Of a DNA stretch of 64,000 bases, positions 1 through 58,899 are shown one piece after another. The DNA lies in NCBI GenBank assembly GCA_021234155.1, contig JAJEKV010000202.1, forward strand, positions 62,001-126,000, read 5' to 3'. How positions within the stretch are numbered: position 1 is the stretch's first letter; the number at the start of each line of letters is the position of its first letter. A program made the translations under genes and the position numbers. The notes under the pieces were generated by a model that made no database searches, was not told the DNA's origin, and was given only the letters and a program-made list of their open reading frames with translations. The DNA is from Isoetes taiwanensis. Lineage: Eukaryota > Streptophyta > Lycopodiopsida > Isoetales > Isoetaceae.

Positions 1-1540
1 TGAAGAACCACGGGAAGGACATTATACAAGTGTAGCAAAGAGGATAAGATTCAACCAAGTGAACTTGAGTTTAGAGATTGGAAGACCCCTCAAGATTGAA
101 GTTTGGAAGACCTCTCAAGTTTCTTTGGTATGTGGCTAGTTCCAAATCATTTTGGCATGAGTTCTATTTTCCAAGGCTTCTCACATGATCATTATCACCT
201 CAATCCCATCCATGAACACCATACAAGATTTATAACTCACATCTTCATGCCTCATCATCATTTTCCCTAGCCCATATATGCATCACACTCCATCATACAT
301 TCACCACCTTGGAGAAAAGCAAAAAATCCCACCAAGTTTGGCTATTTCCATGTTCTAAAACCATCCTCTCTCTCTAAAAGCTAAGCTAGAGAGAGAAAGT
401 GCACATTTTCTTCAAACAAGTATGGAAAAGTAAATTATCCAAGCCATTGCATAAAAGATCTATTGGTATATGCACTAGTGCCAAATTGGTTGCCAAAGTC
501 CACATCATCCTCAAGAATGCCAAATACCATCCACATCACCACCTAAGCACATCCATGTCATCATACACGTGTCACCTACCACAAAACTTATCTTTTCAAA
601 AATTTTGACCTGAGTAAAGTCATCTTGATACCTTAGATGACATGTCATCATCCCATGATGCCACATCATCCCCAAGTGCTTCCACATCATCATACACATG
701 TCATCCACATCATCTCCACTTCATAAAAAGTTTTGACTAGAAAAAAGTCATTTTGCCACCTTACTTGACACTTCATCGCCATGTCACCACCCATTTGCCT
801 AATCGCCCCACCAACTTGCCACATCATAAAATTTCACTCTCTTTTTTAGTAAAAAAAATCAAGTGCTCTTTTTTTGCAAAATGATTCTCCCATCTTGTAG
901 AGCATCAAAAAAGATTCCTTGTGGAATTTTTTTTTTTTTTTTGAAAAAAACTCATATTGACCTTCATTGTTCATTTTGGGATTTGTGACAAATTTGTGGC
1001 AATTTTGGGACATGTCATCATCCCATGATGCCACATCATCCCCAAGTGCTTCCACATCATCATACACATGTCATCCACATCATCTCCACTTCATAAAAGT
1101 TTTGACTAGAAAAAAGTGATTTTGCCACCTTACTTGACACTTCATCACTTTATGCCATGTCACCACCATTTGCCAAATCGCCCCACCAACTTGCCACATC
1201 ATAAAATTTCACTCTCTTTTTTAGTAAAAAAAATCAAGTGCTCCTTTTTTTTTGCAAAATGATTCTCCCAAAATTTCGTAGAGCATCAAAAAAAGATTCC
1301 TTGTGGATTTTTTTTTTTTTTTTTTTGAAAAAGACCCATATTGACCTTCATTGTTCATTTGAAAAAATAAAAAAAAAAAAATCCTATCTACCTTCCTCAT
1401 CAGCAAAGGCACCACACAACAACACCCCCCCCTCCGGGCAATGCCTAGTCACTTCTCCATCCAATCTTGATCCCCCACGTGGTACCCCCGGCATGTGGGC
1501 GGCAACGGCGGAATCCCGTGAAGGTAGCACGTAAATTTAC
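1..1540 (-). repeat. Family B dispersed repeat, copy A
   Basis: This segment is the reverse complement of long stretches at 38.9-41.4 kb and 60.4-61.5 kb, down to shared phrases such as the 'cttcccgtggttcttcaac' end and the 'gtggcatcatgggatgatgac' block. It is AT-rich and non-coding, with many CATCATGT/CACCATG-type words. Inside it, 720-960 and 1060-1330 are an internal direct duplication of the same 250-bp block, each ending in a T-run of 16 to 20 bases. A C-rich run at about 1424-1432 corresponds to the G-runs of the other copies. No protein is encoded. I infer that it is part of a large non-autonomous retroelement because in three copies it abuts the same TATA-containing leader. Confidence 0.85.
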
Positions 1541-1836
1541 TTATGAAACTTAGAGGGCTGTATATATACCCTATGGACTTTCATGATCTCGGCCTGTGGG
1601 ATATTGTTCTAGAAAAATCTAAGAACCCTAAAAGGGCAGGCCACGTTCCGGCCTTTTTTGGCGGATTGAGCGTGTCAATCATCACCCGAGCTCGAAATGA
1701 CCTTATACATGCCAAAAACATATTCACACATTACAATCCAAACAAAATCCACGGATCAAACAAAACTAACAAAAACAGGGGATTTGTGAAGGGGAAAATG
1801 TCTCTGAGGATTTTTTGATGGCTCCAGCGCGAAGTT
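1541..1836 (+). promoter_or_regulatory. TATA-containing leader upstream of a gag fragment (copy A)
   Basis: A run TATATATA lies at 1561-1568, about 275 bases before the gag-like frame. The segment is conserved in three copies: here, 38510-38830 (minus strand) and 59756-60310 (minus strand), which is better conservation than in the flanking repeat. It includes the motif 'ggatattgttctagaaaaat' and an A-rich stretch just before the gag region. I infer a promoter plus untranslated leader of a retroelement. No transcription start can be read from sequence alone. Confidence 0.45.
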
Positions 1837-2196
1837 TTGAAACCTGCTTGGAATCCTGTTACTCCAGAAGACAAGAAGAAAGATTTAACAGCTCTTACTC
1901 TTCTTAAGGCTACAGTTTCAGCTGATTTCAAGAGAGATCTCAGAACTGTTAAGACATTTCAGCATGCTTTGGAATTTGTAAAGCAAAATTCTGTCCAGAA
2001 AGGAGCTAGAAAGGAGCTAGGCAACAGGTTAATATTCAAAAGCAAATGGATAGTCTCAAACTTCAGGACTGTGCAAGCATGTGAGAGTATCTTGGTCAGC
2101 TTAAGACTCTAAGGGACAAGTACCTTGGTGCTGGTGGACATATAGATGATGCTACTCTTATTATCCATGAAGAAAATAATTATGCTATAGAACAAT
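1837..2196 (+). pseudogene. Ty1/copia gag fragment (UBN2-like), copy A
   Basis: The frame starting at 1837 encodes 'KPAWNPVTPEDKKKDLTALT', followed by 'LLKATVSADFKRDL', the usual look of the copia Gag N-terminal half: a Trp, then a charged helix with an A-L-x-L-I/L pattern. After about 1975 the reading shifts frame and continues as 'QVNIQKQMDSLKLQD', then 'EYLGQLKTLRDKYLG', which fits the UBN2 helices (a variable-length Gln-rich helix, then EYL-x-x-hydrophobic-K). Two in-frame stops and one frameshift make it non-functional. The PBS-bearing LTR next to it lies in the opposite orientation, so gag and LTR here are not parts of one normal element. The Gag call rests on pattern recognition and is moderately secure. 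Confidence 0.6.
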
Positions 2197-2335
2197 AAGA
2201 CCTAAGCATCTAAGCTTATTGATCAAACACAATAATCCCAATGTTTGTTATTCAAAATCCTTAAAGGTTTGATTCAAAATTCACTTGTCACATAACCTTT
2301 AGCATAAACCTTATATTTGCTCTGATAATTTCCTT

Positions 2336-2735
2336 TGTAGGTATTGACCCGTTCAATGAGACTGAGTTATCCTTCTCTTGGATAGCCCAAGCTGCCCGAC
2401 GATCTGCATACAGTTCACCTGCAAATAATCTCACATCAATGCAATTACAAGAATACTTCTTCTGTTATTTTAGATCAGGATCCGGCCGCTATAGCGGACC
2501 GATCGATCCACCTGATATCACTAAGGCAACTTTCTTTTTCTATTCAATATGGGATAGATATATCCCATAATAACTGGGCCAAACCTTCGAAACCTTTAAC
2601 CCTTCGAAACCTTTAACCTTTAACATTACAATTTCATCCTTTAACCTTGAATATCAACTTTAGGTTAAAAGATCATGTGCAACCTCGATTTTGTCTAGGC
2701 TATCTTCATTAATCATAACATGAACAATCCCTACA
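2336..2735 (-). mobile_element. copia-type LTR, copy A (inverted)
   Basis: This is a 400-bp LTR read on the minus strand. It begins TGTAGGGATTGTTC at 2735 and ends CAATACCTACA at 2336, giving TGTAG/CTACA ends. It is about 95% similar by eye to the LTR at 37588-37985. On the same strand, just beyond its end (about 2312-2335), lies AAATTATCAGAGC, which resembles the initiator-Met tRNA primer binding site of copia elements (usual core TATCAGAGC). On the other side, 2736-2746 reads GTCCGGGGGAAT, a polypurine-like tract. This LTR therefore has both a PBS-like and a PPT-like flank. Confidence 0.8.
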
Positions 2736-2746
2736 ATTCCCCCGGA

Positions 2747-2870
2747 CTCCAACATGCCAAGGTGGCTCAAACATGCCAAGGTGGCTCCAACATGCCACAC
2801 GGGCTCCAATATGCCAAGGTGGCTCAAGCATGCCACCTAGGCTCAAGCATGCCATCTAGGCACTCCAAAT
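2747..2870 (-). repeat. 19-bp minisatellite, left block (reverse orientation)
   Basis: About six and a half copies of the 19-bp unit are present in reverse orientation ('ggctcaaacatgccaaggt' and 'ggctccaacatgccacctag' types). The block lies directly against the PPT-like end of the LTR and against the left end of the large palindrome. It is the mirror counterpart of the much longer array at 5235-6715. Confidence 0.85.
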
Positions 2871-5213
2871 GGTGACTTGGCATGCCAAGTAAGCAAGGCC
2901 AAGTTTTGACTAGGCCAAAAATGAAAAGATGTCCATCTTTTGACATGGCTAGATGGTGGTGACATGGACATGATGACTAGGACATGACAAGGACATGACA
3001 TGGCTAGATGGTGGTGACATGGACATGATGACATGATAGCCTTTGGAATTTTTGGTAGAGGAGTTTGGCAATGGATAGAATAGAGGATCTTCTTGACACC
3101 CCTTCCCCGTCCAGAACTAGGCCGGGACTTTCGTGGCTTCCTCACAAGAGGAAAGGCCCGGACCCGGGGGATGGCTCGAGAAAGGTTGCGGGGCAGCCTT
3201 TCTGCCAGCCAATTACCGGATGGGCAAATGCCAATGCCCCCCTTCCCGGAGCTCGATTTCTCTATCCGACCGTTGAATCCACCGTTCAAGTAACCTGCTT
3301 CGAGCAAGTTCAAAAAAATTCAAGATCCGTCCGGGGAAACTTATCAAACCGTGAAGCGGCCTGCACTCGACGTGTAGAAACCCAAGTGTTTTGTCGTTCG
3401 AGCAGTACAAAGGCTCCGGAATGGAGATTCGACTTCGCCATGTCGTCCGGAATGGTGACATTACCCTAGGGATCAAGTTATACGGTCATTTTTGGCAGAA
3501 AAAAACATGAACCCTCTACGACAATATTCTGTCCATCTCTTCGCCAATTGACTAGGAGCGTATTGGACATGAGCTACTTTGGCTTCTTGGAGAAAGTGGT
3601 CTTACGCCCACGAAACTTGGTCCCAAGGGTAATCTCGATGTTTTGAGTCCATTGGCAGAGTCAGTTTACAATTTCGGAGTGGGAGAGTTGCTTGTCCATG
3701 GCCAAGGGCCTTTGGGAGAGGGCCTTTGGGGTGAACTGCTTTCGAAAGGTTTTAAGGGTCCGTCTTCTGGCGTCAACACCCTCCCTCTACTTGATGACAT
3801 TGTGCAAGATCCTGGTCGAATCTGATTAGGATATGGCCTCCGGCGTAAACCCCCTGTGTTGCTAGGTTATTGAAGGGTTTACGTTTGGGTTGAAGTTGTT
3901 TTGTCGGTTGCACTTGGGACATGGCGAGAAGCTGCAATTTGAAAACGCGAAGCAATAGGGGATTGGCGGAATGGGATTTGGATTTATCCTCCTCCCATAA
4001 TGGCAAATAGAAGCCAAGAGCGCCTTTTGCAGTAGCAAAATTGTTTGGGATCATTCGGGATGGCCAATAGATCCAAACCCCATTCCTTCAGTTCCTATTG
4101 CTTCTTGTTTTTACTGCGGCTTCTCGGCCCATGTCCTGCGTGCAACCGACTAAATCGCGACCTCCATAACGTAAACCCTTCAATAACTTAGCAAACCACG
4201 GGGTTTACGCTTTGAGGCCATATCCTAGTCGATTCACTCAGGATCTTGTACAATGTGATCAATGAGAGGGAGGGTGTTGATGCCAGAAGATGGACCCCTT
4301 AAAACCTTCCGAAAGCGCCGCCCCAAAAGGTCCTCTTCCCCAAGGCCCTTGGCCACCTGATGGGCAACTCTCCCACCCTAACTATAAACCGACTCGCCAA
4401 TGGACTCAAAACATCGACATTACCCTCGGTGACCAAGTTTCGTGGCCGGAAGATCACCCTTTCTCCAGAAGCGCCAAGGTAGCTCATGTCCAACACGTTC
4501 GTAGTCAATTGGCCTAAGAGATGGTTGCGGAATACTGCCATGTAGAGGTCCGTGTTTCTTTTGTTGCCAAAAATGACCGTGTAACTTGGTTCCTAGGGTA
4601 AATTTGCTATTCCGGATGACATAGCGGTCAAATCTCCATTTTGAGCCAACTTTGTAATCGCCGAAACCACAAAACACTTAGGTTTCTACACGGTCGACCG
4701 TAGGACGCTTCGCGGTTTGATAAGTTCTTTCAGACGGATCTTGGATTTTTTTGAATTTACTTGAAGCAGGTTACTTGAACAATGGATTCAACAGTCAGAT
4801 AGGAAAACCGAGCTCCAGGAGGGGGGGCATTGGCATTTTCCCTCCCGGAGGATCGTTGGCAGAAAAGGCTACCTCCGCAACCTTTTTGAGGTCCGTCTCC
4901 TGGGGTCTGGCATCTCCCCTCTGGTGAGGAAGCTGCGCAAAGTTCTGGCCTGGTTCGATTTGGGGAAAGGTGTCAGCGTTTAAGTTCTTCAAGATCCCTC
5001 TATTCTATCCCTTGCCAAACTCCTCTACCAAAAAATTCTAAAGGTTATCATATTTCTTGTATAAAGTCCTAGTCATCATGTCCATATCACTACCATCTAG
5101 CCATGTCAACAAAAATTTGCCAACATCACCCAATGAAAAGACCAAAGATGGACATCTTTTCATTTTTGGCTTAGTCAAAACTTGGCCTTGCTTAGTTGGC
5201 ATGCCATGTCACC
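2871..5213. repeat. Large imperfect palindrome (foldback-like core)
   Basis: The left half, 2871 to about 3985, and the right half, about 4065 to 5213, are reverse complements of one another. Anchors checked by eye: 'gtttggcaatggatagaata' (left, about 3063) against 'tattctatcccttgccaaac' (right, about 5003); the 'gagctcgatttctc' region (3249) against 'gaaaaccgagctc' (4803); 'gttattgaagggtttacg' (3868) against 'cgtaaacccttcaataac' (4171); and 'cggttgcacttgggacatgg' (3905) against 'ccatgtcctgcgtgcaaccg' (4131). The loop is about 80 bp. The arms have diverged by substitutions and small indels, so this is not a trivial artefact of one molecule read on both strands. Short open frames occur on both strands but none looks like a known protein. 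I interpret it as a foldback or long-TIR DNA element that carries no transposase. Confidence 0.85.
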
Positions 5214-5234
5214 GCTTGGAATGCCTAGGTTTCA

Positions 5235-6715
5235 TATTGGTGCCTAGGTGGCATGCCTGAGCCACCTTGGCATGTTGGAGCCTAGGTGGCATGTTGGAGC
5301 CCACATAGCATGTTTCAACCACCTTGACATGTTTGAGCCTAAGTGGCATATTTGAGCCATCTTGGCGTGTTGGAGTCCATGTGGCATGTTTGAGCCACCT
5401 TGGCATGTTGGATCCTAGGTGGCATGTTGGAGCCACCTTGGCATGTTTGAGCCACCTTGACATGTTGGAGCCTAGGTGGCATGTTTGAGTCACCTTGCCA
5501 TGTTGGAGTCTAGGTGGCATGTTGGAGCCTAGGTGGCATGTTTGAGCCACCTTGGCACGTTGGAGCCTAAGTGGCATGTTGTAGTCTAGGTGACATGTTG
5601 GAGCCCACGTGGCATATGTTGGAGCCTAGGTGGCATGTTTGAGCCACCTTGACAAGTTGGATCCCCATGGCATGTTTGATCCACCTTGGCATGTTTGGGC
5701 TTAGGTGGCATGTTGGAGCTTGCGTGGCATGTTTGAGTCACCTTGGCATGTTGGAGCCTAGGTGGCATGTTTGAGCCACCACCGGGCATGCCGGAGCCTA
5801 GGTGCCATGTTGGAGCCACCTTGGCATGTTTGAGCCTAGGTGGCATGTTGGAGCCACACATGTTTGAACCACCTTGGCATGTTTGAGCCTAGGTGAGCCT
5901 CCTTGGCATGTTGGAGCCTAGGTGGCATGTTGGAGCCACCTTGCATATTTGAGCCTAGGTGGCATGTTGAAGCCCGCGTGGCATGTTTGAGCCACCTTGG
6001 CATGTTGGAGCCTAGGTGGCATGTTGGAGCCACCTTGACATGTTGGAGCCTAGGTGGTATGTTTGAGTCACCTTGCCATGTTGGAGTCTAGGTGGCATGT
6101 TTGAGCCACCTTGGCACGTTGGAGCCTAAGTGGCATGTTGGAGTCTAGGTGGCATGTTCGAGCCCACATGGCATATGTTGCAGCCTAAGTGGCATGTTTG
6201 AGCCACCTTGGCATGTTTGTGCCTAGGTGGCATGTTGGAGCCACCTTGGCATGTTGGAGCCTAGGTGGCATGTTGGAGCCACCTTGGCATGCTTGAGCCA
6301 CCTTGGCATGTTGGAGCCTAGGTGGCATGTTTGAGCCACCTTGACAAGTTGGATCCCGCATGGCATGTTTGATCCATCTTGGCATGTTTGGGCTTAGGTG
6401 GCATGTTGGAGCTTGTGTGGCATGTTTGAGTCACCTTGGCATGTTGGAGCCTAGGTGGCATGTTTGAGCCACCGTGGCATGTCGGAGCCTAGGTGCCATG
6501 TTGGAGCCACCTTGGCATGTTTGAGCCACCTTGGCATGTCGTGAGCCTAGGTGTCATGTTTGAGCCACCTTGGCATGTTTGAGTCAGCTTGGCATGTTGG
6601 AGTCTATGTGGCATGTTTGAGCCACCTTGGCATGTTGAAGCCTAGTTGCCATGCTGGAGCCACCTTGGCATGTTTGAGCCACCTTGGCATGTTGGAGCCG
6701 AGGTAGCATGTTTGA
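5235..6715 (+). repeat. 19-bp minisatellite, right array (about 77 units)
   Basis: The array alternates two 19-bp half-units, GGCATGTTTGAGCCACCTT and GGCATGTTGGAGCCTAGGT, with scattered variants (for example AGCCCACGTGGCATG). The variants form higher-order blocks: the stretch from about 5455 recurs near 6030. Because 19 is not a multiple of 3 and the unit lacks stops in several frames, long meaningless reading frames appear on both strands (a 57-bp, 19-residue period rich in HLGSNMP and KVAQTC). These are not genes. The array is the outer part of the right arm of the palindrome. Confidence 0.95.
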
Positions 6716-6814
6716 AGTCAAATGCTAGTGAAGTGTGTCAAGCATATATAACTCTTGTATGCTACTATTTTGTGGCAGTAATGGCATGTGGACAACTTGG
6801 TCATACATGGATTC

Positions 6815-7035
6815 TTAGAAAACCTTAAAAAACCACACCTCAAAAAAACACTACCTTAAAAAACACCACCTTAAAAAAAACATCCCTTCAAAAAACCATA
6901 CTGCTTGAGAAAACAACACATCCTTAAAAAATAGACTACACCTCCTTAAGAAACCACCCATTCTTAAAAAAAAAAACTACATATCCTTAAGAAAAACTAC
7001 AGCATATCCTTGGAAAACCACACCCCCATATAACT
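6815..7035 (+). repeat. Degenerate CCTTAAAAAACCACA repeat
   Basis: About 12 to 14 degenerate copies of a short A-rich word (CCTTAAAAAACCACA and relatives such as CCTTAAGAAACCACCC). The unit length varies from 14 to 22 bp. A related but more diverged A-rich region with AAAACAACAC and AAACCACATG words occurs at 58.9-59.35 kb. No coding capacity. Confidence 0.75.
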
Positions 7036-8930
7036 ACGTGTAGAATCTTCAAAAAAACAACTCATATTTTGTTTTTACTGTTGTTTTCAGCCGTGGACCA
7101 AATGTTGGGGTTGTTGTGAAAATTTCAGCCGCTGAATCTGTATACATACGTTAATGTAATGTAAAGCCATTGAATTTCAGCCATTGAATCTGTGGACATA
7201 TATGAATATAATGTAAAGCCATTGAATTATAGTTCAGAGCAGGATTTCATGAACACAAGTGTACCGCTTATCAATGAACAGCTTATTCATGAACTTTAAG
7301 AAAAATGTTTTACAAGATGAATCGCATCCTTCACCTTGATCAAGTTTCCTGCTGGGCTTTTTAAGACAAAGAAAAAATGCAGACCTTGGCATTTCTCGGG
7401 GGGTCATAAGTTCCTCGGACTCGCACAAAGTCTTGTATTACCTTTGCATGTCTACCATATATAAAAGCAGTGTTGGTGATGTCCGATCTTGTCTAAGAAA
7501 ATAAGCTCCGGACCGGGAGAAGCAAAGGTAGAATGGACCAGAGAAGCAAAGGTAGAATTTTTGTAGACTTGGTTCCATGTTTTAATCATGCGTAAATGCT
7601 AAAAGAGTGACGCAACTCGCATTAAAATACCTCTAGACTATAAGCACCACGGCCAGTCCAGTTCCTCTTGATGACCTTAGGTCTTCCAAAGAATGCTAAA
7701 AGCGTGCTCTTTTCTTTGATAAGCTCGCTCAGCCATAAGCATACCGACCAGACCTGAACTTTTTTTCTACAGGAGCGAAGCTTGACGCCCGGGTCGTGGA
7801 AAAAGAAGGCCCTTTAATAATCTCGAACCAACACCGAAGAACCCGGACCAAGGGTTTCCTCTTCAATTTTTTTTCCATATCTAGAAGCAAAAGTGTATGC
7901 GGTGAACCAGCCCCGCCATCCCCGTTATAAGCTCAAGGGCCGGGGAGTCCCGCAGCAGGGCCATCAAAGAGGCCTCTTTTTGCAGCCAAGATAAAAGCAG
8001 GGCCAGCATCATGGCTTCCAATTGCATGGGCACGAGGGCCAGGAGAAACATCTCTTGAAAATTTTCGCTTTCTTTGTCCGGTTCTAGCATCGCATTACAC
8101 TCCCAAAGTGAGCTAGGGAGAGGAATATCATCCAAACTATACCTTTACACTTTAGAGTGTGCTGGAACAACATCCTATATGTCAATAATTGGATTCTTAC
8201 ATTGCATGACTTTTTTTTACAAATATAGAAGACAAGATCAGACATGTATGTTCAGGAAATAATCATCGAAAGGAGAAGAGATTGAAGGGAGTTAAGTCAC
8301 TCATTGCATAAAAATTTTAGCAGCTTGCAACGGACCAAAATTTCTGAAAGTAGCAGAGCTATAAATATTAACATTGATTCAGGAGATGAATATTTACACA
8401 ATAACTGCCATTTGAACCGGCCATCTTCAAGGCCATGCTTCTTTGCATGGGCTGAAATAGTTGCAGACCATGCATGTCTACTTGAAATAGCTACCTTATT
8501 GATTCAACCATATAAGCTCATTTTAATTCAATTCAACTTCGGAACATATACTCGGTACCTTTTACCCTTCCAAACCTTCTTTTCGGCAAGGAACTCCATA
8601 CAAAATAGAGCCAAAGGGCTGCTCAATTCTTTCTTTGTAGTGTCGGACCCAACCACGATTCAACCTCCTCAACCATGTCATCGGTGAAAAACTGTGGTCT
8701 CATAGTCAATCGTGGTCAATTACACCCATCCAAACCTCGCTTCGAGTGCTGCAGCCTCACGACGCCCCCTCACATGGGTAGTGACGAGGAATTCCCACAC
8801 CACCAAGCCGAAAGTAGTCCGAAGGAACTTCAACCGCCCCGGTTTCTAGAACCACCTTTGCTGCCCCCTCCACCATCCAATATGCATATTTCTCTAAGCA
8901 AATGCTTGAGTGGCCTAATACAAATGAAAG
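7036..8930. other. Unassigned intergenic DNA
   Basis: Nothing here is recognisable with confidence. 7085-7235 holds a short tandem duplication around 'atgtaatgtaaagccattga'. The minus strand of 7880-8135 has an 84-codon open frame with a leucine- and methionine-rich middle. Near 8790-8900 on the minus strand a coding-like stretch reads 'YAYWMVEGAAKVVLETG'. Neither is assigned to a family. The second may belong to the eroded transposon that starts just downstream. Confidence 0.4.
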
Positions 8931-9197
8931 TCATTGCAAGAGTTCCTTTACAACACCACTTTCCCCGTCGCTGTCCCCTCTCAATGCCAAGTATCTTGAA
9001 GAAAGCATATCTTGTAATAAAGGCCTCGTGAAATATACAAATTGAACCCGCTTTGTGCTAAATACAATTATGTTAACCAATTGAGCATACCAGTCATGGA
9101 CCTTTGTATCACCAAATGCAAATACATGATCCCCAATTCGAAGAGAGAGCCACGAAAAGAAACAATTCTTGAACACCAACACTTGGTCGGAGGACAA
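8931..9197 (-). pseudogene. CACTA transposase C-terminal block (DUF4216-like)
   Basis: The frame contains 'LRIGDHVFAFGDTKVHDWYA', then 'QLVNIIVFSTKRVQFVYF'. This pattern (V/I-G-D-x-V, then Y-A-x-hydrophobic-hydrophobic-x-I, then a short beta-rich stretch before an aromatic) matches the C-terminal DUF4216-type region of plant Tnp2 proteins as I know it. It lies downstream of the DUF4218-like block in the same orientation, as expected. Overlapping open frames on both strands at 9042-9377 are shadows or a continuation broken by frameshift. The assignment depends on the company it keeps. Confidence 0.5.
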
Positions 9198-10090
9198 CCA
9201 AGGTCATATTGTTTAGCAGCTGATAGTTCCATCGGCGAGACATTCCTCGTCTGGCTTCTTCCGCACAGTATTGGAGTCTCCCTGATGATTTCCTGCCATT
9301 TCTCTGGCACGCCTTGGCTGCCCAGAAATCTTGCTTCCTCCTCGTTTTCAGGGTCGCAATGTGCCCCGCACATTTAAAAACTTATAATCAAATCTCGAAC
9401 TCAAAGAACCCCAATCAAATAAGCATGAAACCTTTCATATAAACGGGTCGCATTGCACGATGTCTGTCTTCCCGATTATTAGTTTTGTGCTCATACCAGC
9501 CAGAAATCATAGCAAGTATTTACCCATTTATTCAACAAATAAGACTCGTGAAGTTATTCCTTTTGAAAGATGTTAAGCCATCTATACACTCTAAGACCGC
9601 ACCGCAGCTTAAAGGCCGAGGTAGTGTAGCTCGTAATTAAAGCAAATACCCCCGCACAAGTGGTTACCGCAAGAAATTGGAAACTTAATCTGCCTAAATA
9701 TATCATTTAACAAAGACATAGGAAACTAATGGACTGGTACATAGCTAAACTCAAAAAATAAATACTGGTCTCATGGAAGATCTAGGTTTGTACATCCACT
9801 CTAAAGGGATGCTATTGCTTTTTGTTGTCAACACATTTTCTCAGCACCAAAGCCTTTTAGGATTCTCGTCTTTGTATTTGCATCAGACTTTTCCTCTTTG
9901 AAAGACATTTCCATCCAAATACACATAGCGTGAGTACTAAAGGACTTGCAGTTCCATTTATAACCTTCGTTCCACAAGGTAATTAACTTGAGACTGGAAC
10001 ACTTTTATGGGTAGAGGATAAGATCAATCTCATATAATCGCTACTAAGAACAATGCATCACATACCCCTACTCTGCTAACAAACACTAGG

Positions 10091-10897
10091 TCATTTACCT
10101 GTCTTCAAGTCGCCTGTAAGCGATGAATGCAGCAAGTTCTCCCACCTCTGCGGATGTAGAAGGCCATTCCTGTCTCGGATACGAGCAAACAAAATCTCCG
10201 AAAAGAAGATCTTGTTTGCAAATTTGGCGAAGGTGAGCTCCATATGCAAGTGATTGGTGAATATTTTGTTGACTTTTGAGAACCGCCTCTCCATCCTACA
10301 AAAAAATGAACATACGCAAGCACTTTTAAATGAATGGCATGATAGAAAGAAACAAGCTCAAAGAATATTCATACACCAACACCATGTGCCATCCAGCCCC
10401 CCATAGTTGCGAATGTCTTGAATCATGTGCTTCGACCCGAAAAGATGATGAATGATCTTGGAGTTACTTCCAAGAAAAGCCTCGCTCATAACCCTCCAGG
10501 CAGCCTGCAGATTACCAAGACAATCAAGAGCTTCTTGAGACCAGCCATTAGTCCTCGTGTAGTCATATATGAGACGACAAAGAATCGGCTCAGAAGTTGA
10601 TGTAGCCGCATTACGCCCTCCTCAAATTAGACCGCAAAAACATATTCGCATACAACCGGCAAAGGTTTGATGTTCATCTGCTTTCCAATACCCTCTACGG
10701 CTAAAAGGTTCATCTGGAAATCTTCTATTGCGTAAATACGGTGTCCTATTTCTCTTTACCTCAATTACACGCCTCTCGACTTCCTTGCGTTTTGAGGTGT
10801 CCCCATCTTTAATCTCCAGCAGCCTAAATGTATTTTCATTGGTGTCTTTGGCCACACCTGCAAAAGATACCGGTTTCACTTTTACCGCTACACTCAC
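10091..10897 (-). pseudogene. CACTA transposase DUF4218-like block with an intron
   Basis: From 10897 the frame runs through 'GYWKADEHQTFAGCMRICFC' (compare the K-A-x-E-W/H-x-x-F motif at the start of DUF4218), one stop, then 'EPILCRLIYDYTRTNGWSQE', to 'KHMIQDIRNYGGLDGT'. Removing a GT-AG intron at 10382-10296 (87 bp on the minus strand) restores a Trp codon and joins directly to 'MERRFSKVNKIFTN'. This reproduces the family pattern Y-G-x-L-x-x-x-W-x-x-E-R-x-x-x. The frame then continues to about 10091, where a GTAAAT may start another intron. The exact restoration of frame by the intron is the strongest single argument for the family call. Confidence 0.7.
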
Positions 10898-11327
10898 ACC
10901 GCAAATATAAGATCACCATTTACACCTCCCTTCGCTTCATGTATTCAAATAACATTTTCTCGCTTTTGGTTATGTTTTCTTCTTTGGATTAAGGGTGTTA
11001 CCGAGGGCTACCGTGGTGCATCGTGATCGATAGGGTGATGCGCCGTGAGATCGTGGCCTTGCGAATGATGGAGTCGCATAAGTATGGACCTCCCTTCACC
11101 CATGATCCTTGAAGGTTGACTTGCTCCTCTCATATTTGTCAATCGACTCAAGGATGAACCGCATTGTCTTTTGGTCGATCCGAAACCTTGACTTTTTGTG
11201 CAGCTCCGGAAAACACCATCCCCCGCATCTAACGCGGCAAGAATGCTGGCATGGGTTTAGGCCACCTACGAAGTTCTCATCAATGTAAGCAACTAGCCTA
11301 AAATTCTAGAGAACAATTAAACAAATG

Positions 11328-11640
11328 TCAATTATTACCTTGAGAAGTTTTGCTGATAGCACAATGTGCAATATGGTCTCCCATGAATCCAAAAAAGAGG
11401 TCATGTGGATGAAATGACGACTGAATTTTTACGCCTTCAAGTCGGAATATCAATTGCATAGTCCACTTCGTGCCATAGCGTAATAACCGATCAATCATTT
11501 TCATTATAACATCCTCGAACACATCAAACACATTTGGCCCCCGCTTCAGGAACTTGCTCGATGGAATGTACATGAGTGGAAGAAGGAAAGACTCGACCGT
11601 AACGCCGGATCTCCATTGAGGACAACCAATGTGTAAGCTT
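11328..11640 (-). pseudogene. CACTA transposase core fragment (Tnp2)
   Basis: A frame reading 'VVLNGDPALRSSLSF' (the N-L-P-P-x-x-R-x-K-like step of Tnp2) leads into 'MYIPSSKFLKRGPNVFDVF' and 'EDVIMKMIDRLLRYGTKW', then 'IFRLEGVKIQSS'. In Tnp2 this region has a proline/glycine step, then D-V-F/Y-L-x-P-L-V-x-E-L-x-x-L-W-x-x-G. Small frameshifts occur near 11580. Upstream frames between 11640 and 12134 carry many Cys and His residues (for example 'PAMCPKVCDEGHADVGF') but cannot be aligned confidently. Confidence 0.6.
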
Positions 11641-12680
11641 CAACGGAATGCACTTTTGTTGTTGCAGCTTGGAAACCATCTCTGTGCAACAAGGCAGCCC
11701 AATGTCGCGGATCCCCCGCAATGTATCTTGGTTCGTACTTGAATTGTTATGCAGCAATTCACACATCGTATGTAGAAACCGGACCGATACTCTTTCTTGT
11801 CCATAACTGCAGGATGAACTTCAAAGCCAACATCCGCGTGCCCCTCGTCACACACTTTTGGACACATAGCCGGGAGCTCAATCCTTGCCTTTGGGTTCCA
11901 TGGATCTTGTCGTTGCCTCCAAATTCTGCCATGACAAAAATGTCTCATGAACTGCAAATCAATGCACGTTTCATTAGTTAACGGATTTCCAAAAATAAAA
12001 CCTAAACAAACAAGGGAGCCATAAGTTTGTGCCATTAATACCTGTGGGGCAGAATCAATTGGCTTGCCAAGCCAATCAGCTCGCAACCTCCAGCTGTGAA
12101 GTAAATTCCAACAAAGTGAAGGCACCGAAAGCACATCCGCCCACGCGGTTGGTCAATGGAATTACTACGCGACACCATCCTTTCGTGTTTTGTTGCATGT
12201 CGGGGAGCACCGTGAAATTTGTGCAAGTAACCACACTCTCATCGCCCTCCTCCGCGCACCAAAGACATGCTTCTTCTCTCCTTCAAATCCCTCTCTCTGG
12301 GTAGCAGATTGCATAACGCTGAATTGGCGTGAGACCCAATTGGATTAGAAATCGTTTCATGGTCTTTGAACTAGAGGGAACTTTCAGACCATTGATCAGG
12401 CCATCCCAGTTACCCTTTCGAGAGAGCAAGGCGGCCAGGCTACATTCTTTGTTATCAGCGAATAAGATCCTAAGAAAATGGCGTTCTTTAAGCTCTCCGA
12501 GACCGAGTGTATCTCAAAGACATTCTCCACTCAAAATAGCCAGAGAATTTTATCTTCTAGTGCCGTGATCCGCAATGTCTTCTACTTTGTAAACCTTGGG
12601 GGCATCATCATTTTCCTCCCCGCTTTTCCTCTCTATCTAACTCATCTTCGTGTGCAACAAAAATCTCGTGGATCAAAAAA

Positions 12681-13203
12681 TCATGTAACTGTTCTTCCAT
12701 AGAGATCAAAAGGTCGACCACCACTAATTTCCTCTAACTGTTCTTCCCCAGCAACATGAATCTCAGAAGTATCACTATTACCTAAATTACCATGTTGTGT
12801 TTCTTGGTCCACCGCGGTGCGAGTGAGGTGTGCAACTTCTTCTAACTGCATTGCATCGCAATCTTCATTCCTGTCTTTATCCATGTCATGGTGTTGGTTG
12901 AAATCAAGAATTGCATTTTCTGTCCGCAAATGTCTTACATAATCACCTTGCTTAAAATGACAAACCATTGGGATTCACAATTACACACCTCTCGCATTTG
13001 CAAATGCGCCCTCACCACCCTGGTTTTGGGATGCTTGCCAACAAAGCCCACTTGTTCCTTGTGTCGTGATCCCACCATGTTGAGCTAGGAATCACCACAC
13101 CAGCTGGATTCTTGAGTCTACATTTCTGACAGAGGCACAGCTTCATGCGGCTTCTGGACGTGACTTGGGGCCTCTTCGATCCGCCTCGACTGCTTCCCGT
13201 CAT
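12681..13203 (-). pseudogene. CACTA transposase N-terminal Cys-rich and acidic region
   Basis: 13203-13012 encodes 'RMKLCLCQKCRLKNPAGV', then 'STWWDHDTR', a C-x-C-x-x-C cluster followed by W and H, similar in layout to the zinc-binding N-terminus of Tnp2 proteins. After a stop and a gap, 12968-12681 encodes an acidic linker ('DMDKDRNEDCDAMQLEE' and 'TSEIHVAGEEQLEEISG') of the kind that follows it. The reading continues in other frames to about 12400. The family assignment comes from order and composition, not from a full alignment. Confidence 0.5.
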
Positions 13204-13209
13204 TCATTG

Positions 13210-16200
13210 TCATTGGAGTAAAAGTTCTAGACAAACTAAAGGCTCGTATCGTATTAGAGACTATTATAAAACATCCCAATTTTTAAACCATATGTTTATA
13301 CCGTATGGTTTTAAGTAGTATTGGTAAGGGTGAAGCATATGTTGGTGACGGGGGCTCCTAAGTTATGGTCGAGAAGGAGTATGTTGTGTTTGTGTTAGGG
13401 TTTAGATTTTTTACGCAGATCTTCTGAGAGTCAGGAGCCGCGTGCGCCCCGGCACATGGGTTTCTTAGAGTTCGTGATTGGATTGCTTCAGCCATTTATA
13501 CAGGTTGAATTTGGTTTTGCTTGTCGGTTTGGTTTTTTCTTTGCACATCGTGTTTCTTTTCTCTTCCTCAGCAGCAGAGAGTAGATAGGTGCATCTGGAA
13601 TTGGTTTTACAGGGCTGGTGATTTTATCTTTGGTTGGATTGGGCATTGTTTATAGTGCTCAGAGTTTGGTTTCCTGGCCGTTTTGCTCTTCCGTTGCATC
13701 ATAAAGTGGTCGCTTGTTGCTTGTGGAAATTTTAGCTAAAGCAAACCATGCATTCGACAAGATTAGGAGAGGCTAATGATTTTTACGTTTCTTGTATAGA
13801 TAGCCACGACGTTGTAAGCCTTAACCTAAGTTGACCCATCAATGGTTAATTTAGTTACTATTGTTCTATTCTAGTGAATGTGATCCGGTTTTGCTAATTG
13901 TTGTATGTCGACACGCTTTGGAAGATGTGAACCGCAATGGCCTCGCCACACGTGGGAGCACTATTTTGTTGCCGCAGATATAAGGCATTGCCTTCTTCCC
14001 ATGTTATTTTATTTTCCTCTACATAGATGGAACACTATTTCCCTTGCCGCAGAGATATAATGCATTGCCTTCTTCACATGCTTCATATTTTATTTGCCTT
14101 TGTCCGCTTGAGACTATCTTGTCGGATCTCAAGTAGGGGCTTCGGGTCCCTTCAGAGACGGTATGATGGCCTCACTTGACCAAATAATGGAAACCTTGCC
14201 AGGGTTCACCTCCCTAGGCTCTACCTCATCTTTTAGTCTGTTGAATCTAGTTTTCGAGGACGTTAAAAACCAATTCAATTCAATTCAATTCTTTCAGTTT
14301 TGCTATTCATAGTGGTCATGTATCACAAATTTATGGGCAAGTCCAAATGTGGCGGTTTGACCCCATCTTATTTTGTAGGGAATGGCCCAGAATGCCTCAT
14401 ATGGGATATTCCCCATAAGATTATGCAATCTAATGATCCCAAAAAAATCTTACACACCCCAAACTTCTTGCTTATTATGTGGTCGGCAACATTCCATAGC
14501 AACTTCGAGTCTTCTGGTTTATCACAAGTACCAAAGGCAATCTCTCAAGGCCTAATATCCTTCAAAACAATATCTCAAGGTCTAATGTTCGTCAATGCAA
14601 TATCTCAACGTAGGAATAGAAAAGGATTCTGGATCAATAATCACAAACTAGATTTGATTCTGGCAATTGGTCATTGGCCTCCTTCTATTGAATTTGCGGC
14701 TTTCAAGATAACACATGGCTTCTCCAACTTCTTGTCTCCCTTCTAATCAATACCACAAGATACCGTCAACTCCGGTGGTCATTGTCTGCGTCTTGTCCGT
14801 TGTATGGTCGGCTACTAACGGATGGTCGGTGTTATAACAAATGGACTTCTTCCCTTCCCCTTCTCCTTTCCCTCCCCCTCTCCATATACATGATCGTTGC
14901 CTCCCCTACTAGTGTCCTTCCTTAATACTAGTCAATGGCCCTTTGTTCATCGTTGCATTGTCTCCATAATATATTGCTCCCTTCAAACATATAAAAAGCG
15001 CTTCCGATAAATTAGAAATATCTTTTGTAGTCACGACCTCGTCTTTTTTTGATATATCTCGACCCTATCTAATATCACTATTACTTTTTATAATACAATG
15101 GTCTTCCCTTATTATAGATTAATAGAAGCGCCTCTTACAATAACACATTGATATTATTTTTAATAACATTTCCCTTGTTCTCATATTAGGCGACATGCAG
15201 GATTAATAGTTTACGTAGCTTTGCAACTATCTAATTATACATCATGATCTCGTTTTATGTTACAATGCATATTGTCCCTTATTATACGTTATAATAGATA
15301 AGATAAGATAAGATAAGATGTGATAAGATGACATAAGATAAGATAAGATAAGATAAGATAAGATAAGATATAAGATAAGATAAGATAAGATAAGATAAAG
15401 ATAAGATAAGATTTAACGTCCACAGGAACCCAAATAGAAAAAAAAAGGGCATGAGCCCCAACAGAACAGTCGAGGCCCAATTAAAATAGGACATGGGGAC
15501 TAAGCCCTCTTAAAACAAAAGAACGGAATAGGAAAGAAACAACAAAGAAACAATGAATATCGTCCAACCAAGGTTTATGAGGCTAGTGGTCACAAATGAT
15601 AGTTGTGCCTCCCCTGTTTGCCCACCTTTTTTGTAGCCTAGCCTCGCATACTTTGCACAATTCCCCTCGTCGCCTGGTCAATTTGTATCGGGGACAGATG
15701 GCCTGGATTGAAAAACTAGTATTCTTCAGGTGGCTGTCGTATTAAGGGTACATACAGTCTGTCCTGAGCGGTCTTGAACTATACCACAATATGACGAGGT
15801 CGATCCGGTCTTTATATTGGGCCTTAACTCTTCGGGTTGTGATGATACTAGGTTGCTGAATGTGCATATAATATCTGTGAGAAAGTGTGCAGCTTGTTCA
15901 GTATCCGAGAATAAGGTCCTCCCTCAAGTATCCCTATTACATGCAAATTCAGGCCTCTGTCTTCATCCGAATCATGTAAGGGAGATGGACCCTGCTATGC
16001 ATGGTTGTGAGAATCCATATGAAAGCCTGGTTGCATCTGTGCATCAGTCATTACATCGTCTATGTCTAAGGCTAGGCCTTTCTCGAGTCATGGCGTTAGT
16101 TTTCTCTCTCGCTCCGTGTTCATCCGTGGAGGGCATCCGCATTCATGCGGTCCCCGATGGAAGGCAATGGCTCAAGATAACAACTTGTACTTAGGGACGT

Positions 16201-22374: not shown

Positions 22375-22926
22375 ATGAAGCCGACCCTCCAATAGATTCC
22401 CCTAGATTTTTGAAGATCAGCACAAGATTCCTTCAAATTTTGCAATATTCTATGTAGATTCTCCTAGATTATCCACGTGATTCTACAAAGATTCTCCAAG
22501 ATTCTATCAAGATTCCTCTCGATTCTCAAATATTTCCTTAGATTTTCTAAGATTCTCTTGAGATTCCCCTAAGTTTTTTACAGATTACCCCAAGATTCCT
22601 CTAGATTTTCCGAGATTCCATGTAGATTCTCTTAGATTTTCCAAGATTCTATAAAGATTCCCCTTTGAATCCCCAAAGTTTCTCTTGAGATTCCTCTAGA
22701 TCCTCTAAGATCCTATGAAGATTCCCCTAGATTCTCTAAGATTTTATGAAGATTCCTTTAGGTTCTCCTAGATTCTCTAAAAATTCCCCTAAATTCTAAA
22801 AGAATACCCCAAGATTTCTCTAGATTCTTCAAGATTCTACGAAAATTCTCCTAGATTCTCCAAATTCTCAAATATTTGAGGAATATTTCCCTAGATTCCT
22901 AAAGGATCGCTTGGGATTCATATAGA
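22375..22926 (+). repeat. GATTC-rich degenerate array, left part
   Basis: A long run of degenerate units, each AGATTCYCCTAGATT or CTAAGATTCTATGA and close variants, with GATTC/GATTT spaced every 10 to 17 bp for about 550 bp. It contains no coding frame. It is interrupted at 22926/22927 by a Helitron and resumes at 25953. Confidence 0.9.
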
Positions 22927-25952: not shown

Positions 25953-26345
25953 TTCTCTTCAGATTCCTCTGGCTCCCTTAGATTATATGAAGATTCCCCT
26001 AGACTCCCCAAGATTCCTTCAAGATTCCTCTAGGTTCTTAAAGATTTTATCAACATTCCCTTAGATTACCTTACATTTTCAAAGATGCTCTCTTGAATTC
26101 CCATAGATTCTCTAAGATTCTAATTATATTCCTTTGGATTCTCTAAGATCGATGTCCAGATCTTATGTTGAGGCTACCTAGGAAATGTAATGTTTGAGAC
26201 TACATTCCCCAACATTTTCTCTAGATCCCTCTAAGGTTCCCTAAGATTCCACAAAGATTCCCCATATTATGTGAAGGTTCTCCTAAATTTCCTTAAGGTT
26301 CCTCTATATTCTCGAAGATTCCTTAAGCCTCGGCAAGATTATTGA
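25953..26345 (+). repeat. GATTC-rich degenerate array, right part
   Basis: Continuation of the array at 22375-22926, with the same AGATTCCTCTAGGTT and CTAAGATTC words, ending near 26345. Confidence 0.85.
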
Positions 26346-35916: not shown

Positions 35917-36591
35917 CCTGTAATGGTATTTTGAGGCTATGAAATGCGTAATATAAATCCTTTTTGCCTAAATGATATCTTTCTTGTTGTTTCAAAAACT
36001 GTTTTTTGGTTTTGACTACAAACATATTTGTCTAAATATTATGGTGCTGATTTCTGAGTCAGAATGGATGCTGCATGACAAGCAGATTTATCTCTACACA
36101 TGGCTTGAAGCTATAATAAAGTATAAAATTTTTGCATTCATTATAATCATAGGAACTCTTGTTTTAGGATGAGAAGGAAATCTGGACCCTGTTTAAACAT
36201 CTCAGATTACCATATTTCCAACACTCTATTGTGATATGTCAGACAAGAAAAATACAATTTAGCTTTGTTAATTGGTAGTTTTATGGTGTGGCAGCATCAC
36301 ATATGCACTTGTGTCTATGCCCTCTGCTGTTAAAAACATGTAGTTGCAAGATACAGATTTGGAGGTCATGGTTTTGTTATCATTATATCCAAAGTAGTCT
36401 TGTAATTCACAACTACACTTTAGAATGCAATCAACACAGCAGAGTTGTTTACTATCTTTAACAGCCGCAGTAACTATCCTTATTTCTGTGTACACAAGTC
36501 TGCTTTCAGACTTTAAGGATTTGTTAAGTTACAAAATGATGGCAATCTCTATAAGTATCAGACTGGTGAGGAATGGTGCATAATTGCACTG

Positions 36592-37012
36592 TATGTAGAT
36601 GACAATATAATGATCTCAAAAGGAATTAAAGTTCTGGAGCATTGCATGAATGTTCTAAACATTAAATATAGGATGTCATATTTAGGTGAGCTGAGGAAAT
36701 TCTTAGGAGTTGAAGTTCACAGGGATAGAGCCAATAAGATATTGACACTTACTCAGAAGAGCCAGATAGAAGGGATGCTTGACAAATTCAAAATGAGAGA
36801 CTGCAACATTGCTAAAACTCCTATAATACCAGGGTGTAAGATTTCTGCTAAGATGAGCCCAAGAACTGAAAGAGAACGAGAAGAGATGAAAAAGGTACCT
36901 TTTACGTGTCTCGATAGGATGTCTTTCTTATGTGGCAAATTGCACTTTCCCGATATAGCTTATCTTTGTAAACATGTTAAGCGGTATAATAATGACCGGT
37001 GAAGGGATCACT
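36592..37012 (+). pseudogene. copia pol fragment: YVDD and connection region
   Basis: One frame of about 137 codons remains open from before the YVDD motif to 37002. It covers the last RT palm strands and the thumb/connection ('LTQKSQIEGMLDKFKMRDC', 'AKTPIIPGCK', 'PFTCLDRMSFLCGKLHFPDI'). The usual wording of this family is P-Y-x-x-A-x-G-S-L-M-Y-x-x-x-x-T-R-P-D-I; here it has drifted (S-F-L-C-G-K, P-D-I kept). It ends at a stop at 37000, after which RNase H continues in other frames. Confidence 0.85.
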
Positions 37013-37587
37013 TGATAGCGACAAAGAGGACATTAAGATATCTTAAGGGGACAATGAATGATGGAATTAGTTACAATACGAGAAACTTACAATTTGCGGG
37101 CATTTTGTGATGCGCAGATTGGGGAGGGGACCTTGATACAAGGAAGTCTACCTCGGGGGTATTTAATCTTCTTAGGAGGAGCACCAATTGCATGGAATGC
37201 AAAAAAAAGAAATGCTATTGCTATGTCTAGTCTTTGAGGCGTATATGCTTCAAATTTGCATTAGCTACCAAAGAGTTGATATGGGAAAGAAGGCTCGTGT
37301 TTGAATTAGGTTATGATCAATTTAAGGCTCTGAGAATTACATTGTGATAGTACCCGGTGCATAGCTATGACTAAAGACCCGGTTCTTCACGAAAAGGACT
37401 AAGCATATTGAGTTAGAACCGCACTTTATCGAGAGATGTTGTGAAGAAAAAAATGCGATCAAGATGGTATATGTGAACACCTCAAGTCGGTTAGCGAGAC
37501 ATTCCGACTAAAAGCTCTATCGGAAGGAAAATTTACTGAGTCAAGAATAAAATTTAGTGCAATGTGTCATAACATGAAGGGGGGAAT

Positions 37588-37985
37588 TGTAGGGATTGTT
37601 CATGTTATGATTAATGAAGATAGCCTAGACAAAATCGAGGTTGCACATGATCTTTTAACCTAAAGTTGATATTCAAGGTTAAAGGATGAAATTGTAATGT
37701 TAAAGGTTAAAGGTTTGAAGGGTTAAAAGGTTTGAAGGTTTGGCCCATTATTATGGGATATATCTATCCCATATTGAATAGAAAAAGAAAAAGTTGCCTT
37801 AGTGATATCGTGGATCGATCGGTCCGCCATAGCGGCCGGATCCCCGATCTAAAATAACGTAAGAAGTATTCTTGTAATTGCATTGATGTGAGATTATTTG
37901 CGGTGAACCGTATGCGGTCGTCGGGCAACTTTTGGCTATCCAAGAGAAGGATAACTTCGCCTCATTGAACGGGTCAATACCTACA
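37588..37985 (+). mobile_element. copia LTR, copy B
   Basis: A 398-bp LTR starting TGTAGGGATTG right after the polypurine tract and ending CAATACCTACA at 37985. It matches the inverted LTR at 2336-2735 over its whole length. Beyond its end, 'gtgaaattactgtagcaaat' is a degraded form of the PBS-like region seen in copy A. It thus acts as 3' LTR of the pol remnant on its left while also having a degenerate PBS on its right. Confidence 0.88.
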
Positions 37986-38139
37986 GTGAAATTACTGTAG
38001 CAAATATAAGGTTTATGCTAAAGGTTATGTGACAAGTGAATTTTGAATCAAACCTTTAAGGATTTTGAATAACAAACATTGGGATTATTGTGTTTGATCA
38101 ATAAGCTTAGATGCTTAGGTCTTATTGTTCTATAGCATA

Positions 38140-38510
38140 ATTATTTTCTTCATGGATAATAAGAGTAGCATCGTCTATATGTCCACCAGCACCAAGGTAC
38201 TTGTCCCTTAGAGTCTTAAGCTGACCAAGATACTCTCGCATGCTTGCACAGTCCTGAAGTTTGAGACTATGCATTTGCTTTTGAATATTAACCTGTTGCC
38301 TAGCTCCTTTCTAGCTCCGGACAGAATTTTGCTGTCCGGACAGAATTTTGCTGGACAGAATTCCAAAGCATGCTGAAATGTCTTAACAGTTCTGAGATCT
38401 CTCTTGAAATCAGCTGAAACTGTAGCCTTAAGAAGAGTAAGAGCTGTTAAATCTTTCTTCTTGTCTTCTGGAGTAACAGGATTCCAAGCAGGTTTCAAAA
38501 CTTCGCGCTG
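38140..38510 (-). pseudogene. copia gag fragment, copy B (antisense to the LTR)
   Basis: The minus strand encodes the same protein as 1837-2112: 'KPAWNPVTPEDKKKDLTALT' through 'KTFQHALEF'. After that it has an insertion of two short repeats of 'gacagaattttgctgtccgg' (about 38318-38358), absent from copy A. As in copy A it lies head-to-head with an LTR of opposite orientation, with the same intervening 150 bp, so the two loci are copies of one rearranged unit. Confidence 0.6.
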
Positions 38511-38905
38511 GAGCCATCAAAAAATCCTCAGAGACATTTTCCCCTTCATAAAATCCCCTGTTTTTGTTAGTTTTGTTTGATCCGTGGATTTTTGTTTGGA
38601 TTGTAATGTGTGAATATGTTTTTTGGCATGTATAAGGTCATTTCGGGAGCTCTGGGTGATGATTGACACGCTCAATCCGCCAAAAAAGGCCGGAACGTGG
38701 CCTGCCCTTTTTAGGGTTCTTAGATTTTTCTAGAACAATATCCCACAGGCCGAGATCATGAAAGTCCATAGGGTATATATACAGCCCTCTAAGTTTAATA
38801 AGTAAATTTACGTGCTACCTTCACGGGGATTCGCCCGTTGTCTTACATGCCCGGGGTACCACATGGGGATCAAGATTGGATGGAGAAGTGACTAGGCATT
38901 GCCCT
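38511..38905 (-). promoter_or_regulatory. TATA-containing leader, copy B
   Basis: Reverse-complement copy of 1541-1836, including TATATA near 38775-38782 and the A-rich tract next to the gag fragment. It differs from the third copy (59756-60310) by lacking about 245 bp that the third copy has at 59902-60148. Confidence 0.45.
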
Positions 38906-39935: not shown

Positions 39936-40011
39936 TCGACGACTGCTCAAAATTACCTTCTTTGCCTCATGAATTAGCTATCTTGAAGGAGAAGCGACTA
40001 GGCATCGCTAC

Positions 40012-40058
40012 GGGGAGGGGGGGGGGTGGGGGAGGGGGGGAGGAGGGGGTGGGGAGGA
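40012..40058 (+). repeat. G-rich tract with quadruplex potential
   Basis: Many adjoining runs of four to ten G separated by single A or T bases over 47 bp, far more than the four runs needed for an intramolecular G-quadruplex. Shorter G-runs sit at the same place in the other family B copies (38905, 60412; C-runs at 1424 in the inverted copy). Confidence 0.8.
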
Positions 40059-53700: not shown

Positions 53701-53886
53701 TGTGCTACCCTTTTTGTTCATGCTTTTGGCTATGGCGGGATCGCCGAAATTGCTTTCGAACCCTAATACGTCGAAAACCCTCCCCTTTGTTTTTTTGGCA
53801 TAATCTGGATCATTGAGTTGACTTAATCTGAGCCGTTTAATCTAGGGCGTGGTTCAAGACACACGCCAAAACATTATTATATAGGA

Positions 53887-57900: not shown

Positions 57901-57918
57901 TTGGTGCCGAACAGAGCT

Positions 57919-58213: not shown

Positions 58214-58583
58214 GTGAGCCCCAAAGAACTTTCCTTTTCTTTATGATTTTTTCCTTTAGATCTCTTATAACATCTTTCTATTTATTTAAAACAGGTGCTT
58301 CGCTGTGTTGAAGCACTGCATTGGGATTAAGGTGTCGGCGGCCGGGCAAATGACTATGGCCACACCTCCTGCTTTCTTCGAAACGTATATTCCACCATTA
58401 TTATTCTGTCGTTTTGTAACCCTATCTCGTGGAAAGCAAAAGTAATGACAGTGGTAACTCTGCTATTTTTTTATTAGTCTTTTGCCTGTTTTACTGTCAA
58501 TTTCGTGGAGCTCTGCTACAAAAATGCATGTGGCTGGGTTTACTTTCAAAGATCCAGAAAAGGGCGGCGAGACTATGGTCTCT

Positions 58584-58795: not shown

Positions 58796-58899
58796 CAAGA
58801 ATTCAAAACATTCAAAATATATGAAGCTGTTTAACCAATAAAAAATGAATGTATTGACTATAGAATAAGAGCTAAAGTAGCGACAAATACAATAAATGT

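Follow-up and report, generated by a model that had tools for sequence, protein, structure and literature searches.

The 64,000-nucleotide stretch of Isoetes taiwanensis DNA studied here (contig JAJEKV010000202.1, positions 62,001 to 126,000; hereafter the window) contains a palindrome bordered by opposed arrays of a 19-bp minisatellite. A first-pass annotation had interpreted positions 2747-6715 as a Foldback-like element. Our analysis indicates that this feature very probably forms the right half of a non-autonomous CACTA-like (CMC) transposon, 8.8 kb in length and with an internal palindrome, which was split by an inversion of about 52 kb. The true ends of the window element are at 7118 and 59518, and its second half, on the opposite strand, occupies 55073-59518. 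As a structure, the palindrome and its minisatellite arms were described correctly, but they represent only half of the element, which was taken for a foldback because the inversion had moved the other half away.

Structure and termini of the element

The annotated architecture, a 2.3-kb palindrome with about 6 units on the left and about 77 on the right in opposite orientations, is real. Self-comparison yielded a single inverted alignment at 2747-5337 with 76.5% identity over 2708 columns. Tandem Repeats Finder (TRF) detected the 19-bp unit in 5.7 copies at 2747-2854 and in 78.3 copies at 5233-6712 (72 units if up to 3 mismatches are allowed), the two arrays having opposite orientations. Six-frame translation of 2744-5232 gave no Pfam domain above the cut-off, the sole match being AHSA1 with an E-value of 0.09. 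The proposed bounds of 2747-6715 had to be revised on both sides, since homology with other copies reaches 7118 and the left side is cut by a rearrangement at 2743/2744. In other copies fetched, the array extends further left than window position 2744. The features of the window copy and of the broken copia retrotransposon next to it are as follows (LTR, long terminal repeat; TIR, terminal inverted repeat; TSD, target-site duplication):

1-2743, minus strand: half of the broken retrotransposon, consisting of copia LTR and polypurine tract (1012-2743 is 91.7% identical to 39270-37580)
2743/2744, no strand: inversion breakpoint 1, where the copia polypurine tract meets the array (copia comparison)
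2744-2861, plus strand: left 19-bp minisatellite array, about 6 units, left edge cut at the inversion breakpoint (TRF)
2862-4042, plus strand: left arm of the palindrome (self-alignment, arm tree)
4043-5232, plus strand: right arm, the left arm inverted (self-alignment, arm tree)
5233-6715, plus strand: right 19-bp minisatellite array, about 78 units (TRF), opposite in orientation to the left array
6716-7118, plus strand: right subterminal region (homology among copies ends at 7112-7118)
7096-7118, plus strand: right TIR, with the variant end GGGGTTGTTGTG common to copy L001
7119-7121, plus strand: right-side TSD, AAA (both flanks compared; empty-site match)
53886-55072, plus strand: second half of the retrotransposon, with the copia 3' internal region (95.0% identity between 53886-55050 and 36385-37552)
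55072/55073, no strand: inversion breakpoint 2, end of the copia 3' internal region joined to the array (copia comparison)
55073-56299, minus strand: remaining 19-bp arrays in both orientations on the far side of the inversion (TRF; 98.4% match of 55068-59518 to E1)
56300-59518, minus strand: left region of the transposon, no Pfam domain above cut-off (match to E1)
59496-59518, minus strand: left TIR, CACACTGACCCCAAATTTGG
59519-59521, minus strand: left-side TSD, AAA on the minus strand (both flanks compared)

The genome searched comprises 1.66 Gb in 1110 contigs and contains an rbcL reading frame of plant type, recognized by eye. The first 554 bases of the feature (2747-3300) gave at least 40 scored long matches (3774 candidates at first look), 39 of which lie at places beyond the window, so that the second palindrome-plus-minisatellite locus sought in the annotation was found. 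In the ten copies fetched first together with their flanks, homology passes the right array and continues to a single terminus, ...GTGGACCAAATGTTGGGGTTAGTGTG, after which the flanks differ. Up to 7 errors were allowed in this comparison, and L010 required two inserted bases. An exact search with the 24 bases of the right end gave 34 occurrences in the genome, compared with none for the reversed control; among eight copies of a second batch, the right terminus was seen in two within the 5 kb fetched. The left terminus CACACTAACCCCAAAAT was found in longer upstream sequence of three copies. A Helitron or another element with asymmetric ends, first considered because the initial upstream stretches showed no left TIR, was dropped at this point. 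The termini are short TIRs reading CACACTAACCCC and are located outside the palindrome. With up to 2 mismatches allowed, this pattern gave 487 matches in the genome, and its reversed control gave none.

TSDs were assessed in 16 two-ended copies, 5.7-19.3 kb long by coordinates, which were chosen by eye and non-randomly from the places listed. An exact 3-bp repeat was present in 15 of the 16 pairs and a 4-bp repeat in none, and 4 of 240 swapped pairs gave a match. Further 3-bp duplications are TAT in E1, E5, and E6, CAA in E4, TAG in L016, and AAA in the window. Subterminal copies of the motif GTGTNGTTTTTTAA were counted in five copies other than that of the window. All five carry 3-4 forward and 0-2 reverse motifs in the left 800 bp, 5-7 reverse and no forward motifs in the right 420 bp, and none internally; most of the motifs thus face inward from the respective end. 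The claim that the feature belongs to a mobile element is supported by these conserved outer ends and target duplications, and the Isoetes taiwanensis genome contains a dispersed family with hundreds of such ends.

Two observations concern individual family members. The copies C5:37092-48562 and C1076:4199741-4219065, both among the 16 pairs tested for TSDs, have the same 10 right-flank bases and the same duplication, ATT; the C5 copy may be a haplotig or duplicate of the C1076 copy, and the two may represent a single insertion. L014 (C908:350000-359900) together with C908:360021 shows three right ends that point the same way at spacings of 4.6 and 4.7 kb, probably because the right part of the element was duplicated in tandem.

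Evidence for an inversion of about 52 kb

The copy E1 on contig C34 is intact where the window copy is split. E1 4478-8942 corresponds to window 59518-55068 with 98.4% identity, and E1 8949-13343, beginning 6 bases beyond the other half, to window 2744-7118 with 97.0%. The outer flanks of the window element (200 + 200 bp), joined minus one AAA, match nearly all 400 bases at 8 places among the 21 matches listed, of which 2 are the window's own halves. These eight places, on C1067 (99% identity), C1041 (99%), C952 (96%), C141 (92%), C1048 (90%), C248 (88%), C994 (86%), and C1032 (82%), are unoccupied copies of the target. Furthermore, when the two copia pieces are put together in order, the resulting sequence aligns across the junction with the copy at 36385-39270 (92.5%), the last bases of the 3' half up to 55072 being matched by eye. 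A single inversion of about 52 kb explains the two broken elements, because E1, the empty sites, and the joined copia all restore the original order. In the assembly, the window element has evidently been cut by this inversion, with breakpoints in the left array and in the copia element beside its polypurine tract.

By eye, the junction lacks 11 bp of array relative to E1, unless one unit differed, and about 2 bp relative to copia. The two junctions have only few bases in common and no long inverted homology that could mislead an assembler (also by eye). They look like the products of simple end joining. Because both array junctions adjoin the copia polypurine tract, a copia element carrying the minisatellite in its 3' internal region had also been considered. 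This was rejected, as no array is present at that place in the copia copy at 36385-41039 and the copia halves align through the joint without one.

Two further repeats were noticed in the window. A hairpin of about 110 bp inside the 19-bp array (55328-55440; fold -32.9 kcal/mol, shuffles -12.3, z -8.6) looks like a nested miniature inverted-repeat transposable element. Two arrays of another, 31-bp minisatellite of the type AGATTCC...CTAGATTC are located at 22592-22868 and 25961-26065.

Classification and mobility

Plant CACTA elements are characterized by a 3-bp TSD, TIRs starting with CAC, and subterminal repeats of 10-20 bp in direct and inverted orientation (PMC8978399). The family described here has a 3-bp duplication (15 of 16 pairs, and E1, E4, E5, E6, L016, and the window), ends starting with CAC, and the subterminal repeat GTGTNGTTTTTTAA in both orientations in all five related elements. 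The superfamily name rests on these features because the terminus is CACAC rather than CACTA; E5 ends in CACGC, and CACTA, where present, starts two bases inside. On the basis of these sequence features the family is CACTA-like, though not proven to be CACTA.

Several points weigh against our interpretation. The very end reads CACAC, not CACTA, in nearly all copies seen, and in the C284 copy the 3-bp duplication is missing, only 2 bp being common. The motif GTGTNGTTTTTTAA was chosen from these very ends and the five elements are related, the controls being the internal count and shuffles; in addition, the left 800 bp contain 0-2 reverse copies of it. The inversion rests on one assembly. Six-frame Pfam searches over stretches of the window, L011, L018, L019, L020, and L062 revealed no transposase at E-value thresholds of 0.1 in the first and 0.01 in the later searches; matches below the cut-off were Gp49 (E 0.013), AHSA1 (0.09), and zf-CGNR (0.045). 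Plant CACTA transposases of the PF02992 type are abundant in the genome (2311 candidates, 150 scored). Among these 150 places and the 132 ends listed, the closest pair is on C1036, separated by 11.6 kb, with the PF02992 match external to the element at that site; the second closest is separated by 80 kb.

An autonomous partner was sought among the longer copies, and only two protein matches emerged. The 11.6-kb copy L062 (C1027) contains at about 1758-1886 a 43-residue match to DUF829 (PF05705, E 1.6e-11), probably a captured fragment of a host gene. In the 17.1-kb copy L019 (C977), a weak match at about 9057-9140 covers 28 residues at the end of HgmA_N (PF20510, E 2.3e-4) and represents either a captured exon or nested DNA.

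E1 and the window copy are near-identical and yet have different TSDs (TAT versus AAA). Such near-identical copies at different sites argue for recent movement of the family. Since no transposase was found in the stretches tested, the element would need a helper, as the first-pass annotation had already stated. Most likely, the mover is a CACTA transposase encoded elsewhere in the genome, which would bind the TIRs and the subterminal repeats and move the element by cut and paste. The palindrome and the arrays would be mostly passive cargo that is easily rearranged, with units gained or lost, arms truncated, the palindrome missing in L016, and a breakpoint falling within the array.

Rearrangement of the palindrome

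In the 19 loci compared, the palindrome is nearly whole in seven (window, L001, L002, L006, L008, L010, L022) and lacks the outer part of the right arm in four (L003, L004, L007, L009). In the other eight (L005, L023-L029), the part fetched carries internal deletions or insertions, or its right side is truncated. In L016, only the outermost approximately 195 bp of the right arm are present, joined to the left array at window position 5038. Together with the inversion breakpoint in the array, this pattern suggests that the palindrome and the arrays form a rearrangement-prone module. With a single inversion to go by, its fragility is only an idea.

Age of the palindrome and quality of its sequence

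An arm tree was calculated for 12 copies (window, L001-L010, L022) of the 19 loci, leaving aside L023-L029 with truncated or rearranged palindromes. In this tree, all left arms lie on one side of a branch with support 1.0 and all right arms on the other. Since left arms group apart from right arms, the inverted duplication is, for these 12 copies, older than their spread, and the arms have since drifted apart. Identity between left and right arm within a copy averages 0.838 (0.786-0.888), and identity between copies is 0.911 for left and 0.923 for right arms. L001, L003, L010, and L022 have left-right identities of 0.868-0.888 and few or mostly evenly spread private changes, with one clump in L001.

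The similarity of the arms is not uniform along their length. In L002, L005, L006, L008, L010, and L022, the outermost 300 arm columns are 90-97% alike, and the inner bins 67-97%, mostly below 90% and lower at the axis. The join in L016 (window 5038) is close to this step. The palindrome may be two-layered, or its outer part may have been converted later.

Differences between the window copy and E1 are concentrated from 2744 to about 4750, where they amount to about 5.5% (108/1970), compared with 1.0% (46/4443) in the other half and 0.4% (10/2393) in the rest of the right half. The first five 400-base bins of the palindrome differ by 4.5-7.1%, the arrays of the left half by 2.5-3.3%, one bin of the left region by 3.5%, and one bin of the right array by 1.3%; 13 of the 23 bins, including most of those outside the palindrome, differ by at most 0.5%. 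This concentration raised the question of palindrome-specific hypermutation by methylation and deamination. For the window copy this is not favoured, as an excess of C-to-T changes is lacking (2744-7118 with E1 as reference: C>T plus G>A 32, T>C plus A>G 40, transversions 46) and the mismatches are clumped.

Private mismatches are likewise clumped in L002, L004, and L006-L009 (variance/mean 3.6-5.1, including the window copy). In the more diverged copies L010 and L022 they are Poisson-like. The simplest reading, although not proven, is that the clumps are likely consensus errors, which would inflate the arm divergence of the window copy. Inverted duplicates have been described to lower the accuracy of nanopore base calling (PMC7229812). 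Against this reading stand the single clump in L001, the variance/mean of 2.1 in L005, and some C>T excess in the overall spectrum of private changes in both arms of all copies (C>T/G>A 146, T>C/A>G 100, transversions 179; 11 copies for the right arm, where L005 failed the length filter). In addition, the right terminal region carries 15 private changes per kb in L002, versus 24 and 14 in its arms, and 20 in L006, versus 23 and 12.5. These terminal regions are as rich in changes as the arms, and the patches in them are therefore not confined to the palindrome. Private changes also increase with local GC content (Spearman 0.48). The bases of palindromes in the Isoetes taiwanensis assembly are possibly less reliable than their surroundings.

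Alternative explanations

The clumped private mismatches within the palindromes of many copies, which suggest a poor consensus, and the reduced base-calling accuracy in inverted duplicates (PMC7229812, as above) would be in line with the palindrome itself being an assembly or chimeric-read artefact. The annotation had named this as a danger, but it is extremely improbable: palindromes of this kind are found at many places whose flanks differ, and a fold-back artefact arising per read would give near-identical arms in each copy, whereas the tree parts 12 left from 12 right arms with support 1.0. The two junctions at 2743/2744 and 55072/55073 could be attributed to misassembly or to two separately truncated elements, given that the surrounding region is repeat-rich and the evidence consists of assembled sequence. 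This is improbable too, because rejoining the sequences at both breakpoints makes two different elements whole at the same time, empty sites are recovered from the outer flanks, and the junctions have, by eye, only few common bases and no long inverted homology. A true Foldback, in which the palindrome and its minisatellite arms form a mobile unit nested in another transposon, would fit the tandem repeats in the inverted arms. L016 without the palindrome core could represent the unfilled state, and its join lies about where arm similarity steps down from outer to inner in some copies. The right terminus was seen in only two of the eight second-batch copies (5 kb fetched), and there was no systematic search for duplications at the palindrome edges. 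Nevertheless, all ten palindrome loci of the first batch continue to the same right terminus, the target duplications sit at the outer CACAC ends, and the roughly 195 bp of one arm present in L016 are what a deletion would produce. The long inverted repeats are internal, the ends at 7118 and 59518 being formed by the short TIRs. Foldback elements would be expected to have target duplications of about 8-10 bp, as reported for the foldback Tetris (PMC4079207), whereas those found here are 3 bp long. Together with a family member that nearly lacks the palindrome, this makes a nested Foldback very unlikely.

Other explanations concern the role of the palindrome rather than the identity of the element. 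It is an inverted repeat of 2.4 kb, with arms about 87% identical, in an element that has many copies and was recently mobile. If transcribed, it would give double-stranded RNA, and it could supply hairpin RNA that acts in silencing the helper transposon family or is itself silenced along with it. This role is doubtful. Pfam searches found no transposase sequence in the window's arms, so a transposase would not be their direct target, and left and right arms diverge rather than staying alike, save for the outer 300 columns in some copies. It is unlikely as well that the palindrome-array module is a working hairpin-forming and break-prone cassette that regulates the family and attracts inversions, which would make it a plant counterpart of Galileo that arose independently in another superfamily. 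If it were so, regulation could occur via hairpin RNA or extra protein-binding sites, and copies of the element would be preferred inversion sites.

Significance and comparison with known systems

A foldback appearance can arise inside a CACTA-like element. For plant structures that combine a palindrome with minisatellites, the true ends and target duplications should be found before they are called foldbacks. The window also provides a clean case of one inversion that cut two transposons, supported by empty sites, an intact sister copy, and the restoration of both elements, and one of its breakpoints falls in an array bordering the palindrome. In the open-licence literature, searched at the level of titles and beginnings of abstracts, no description was found of a CACTA-like element whose internal palindrome is flanked by minisatellite arrays in inverted orientation.

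Galileo of the P superfamily in Drosophila (PMC2775673, PMC3573991) resembles the Isoetes taiwanensis element in showing a foldback appearance within a superfamily defined by its transposase and in being associated with chromosomal inversions. However, the long repeats of Galileo are its own termini, whereas the palindrome described here is internal. Galileo inversions arose by ectopic recombination, in contrast to the inversion in Isoetes taiwanensis, which joins unlike sequences. The Drosophila virilis foldback Tetris (PMC4079207) is likewise modular and non-autonomous, with internal tandem repeats and many rearranged forms. Its tandem repeats are located in the TIRs, its TSDs are 8-10 bp long, and it was assigned to Mutator, while the Isoetes taiwanensis element has 3-bp TSDs.

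CACTA elements (En/Spm, CMC) such as Jozin of Chenopodium (PMC8978399) share with the Isoetes taiwanensis element the 3-bp TSD, CAC TIRs, and subterminal repeats, as well as internal gene fragments and the tandem arrays that they can carry inside near the 3' end. The Isoetes taiwanensis element differs from them in its CACAC ends, in that no transposase was found in the stretches searched, and in its palindrome of about 2.4 kb between opposed 19-bp arrays.

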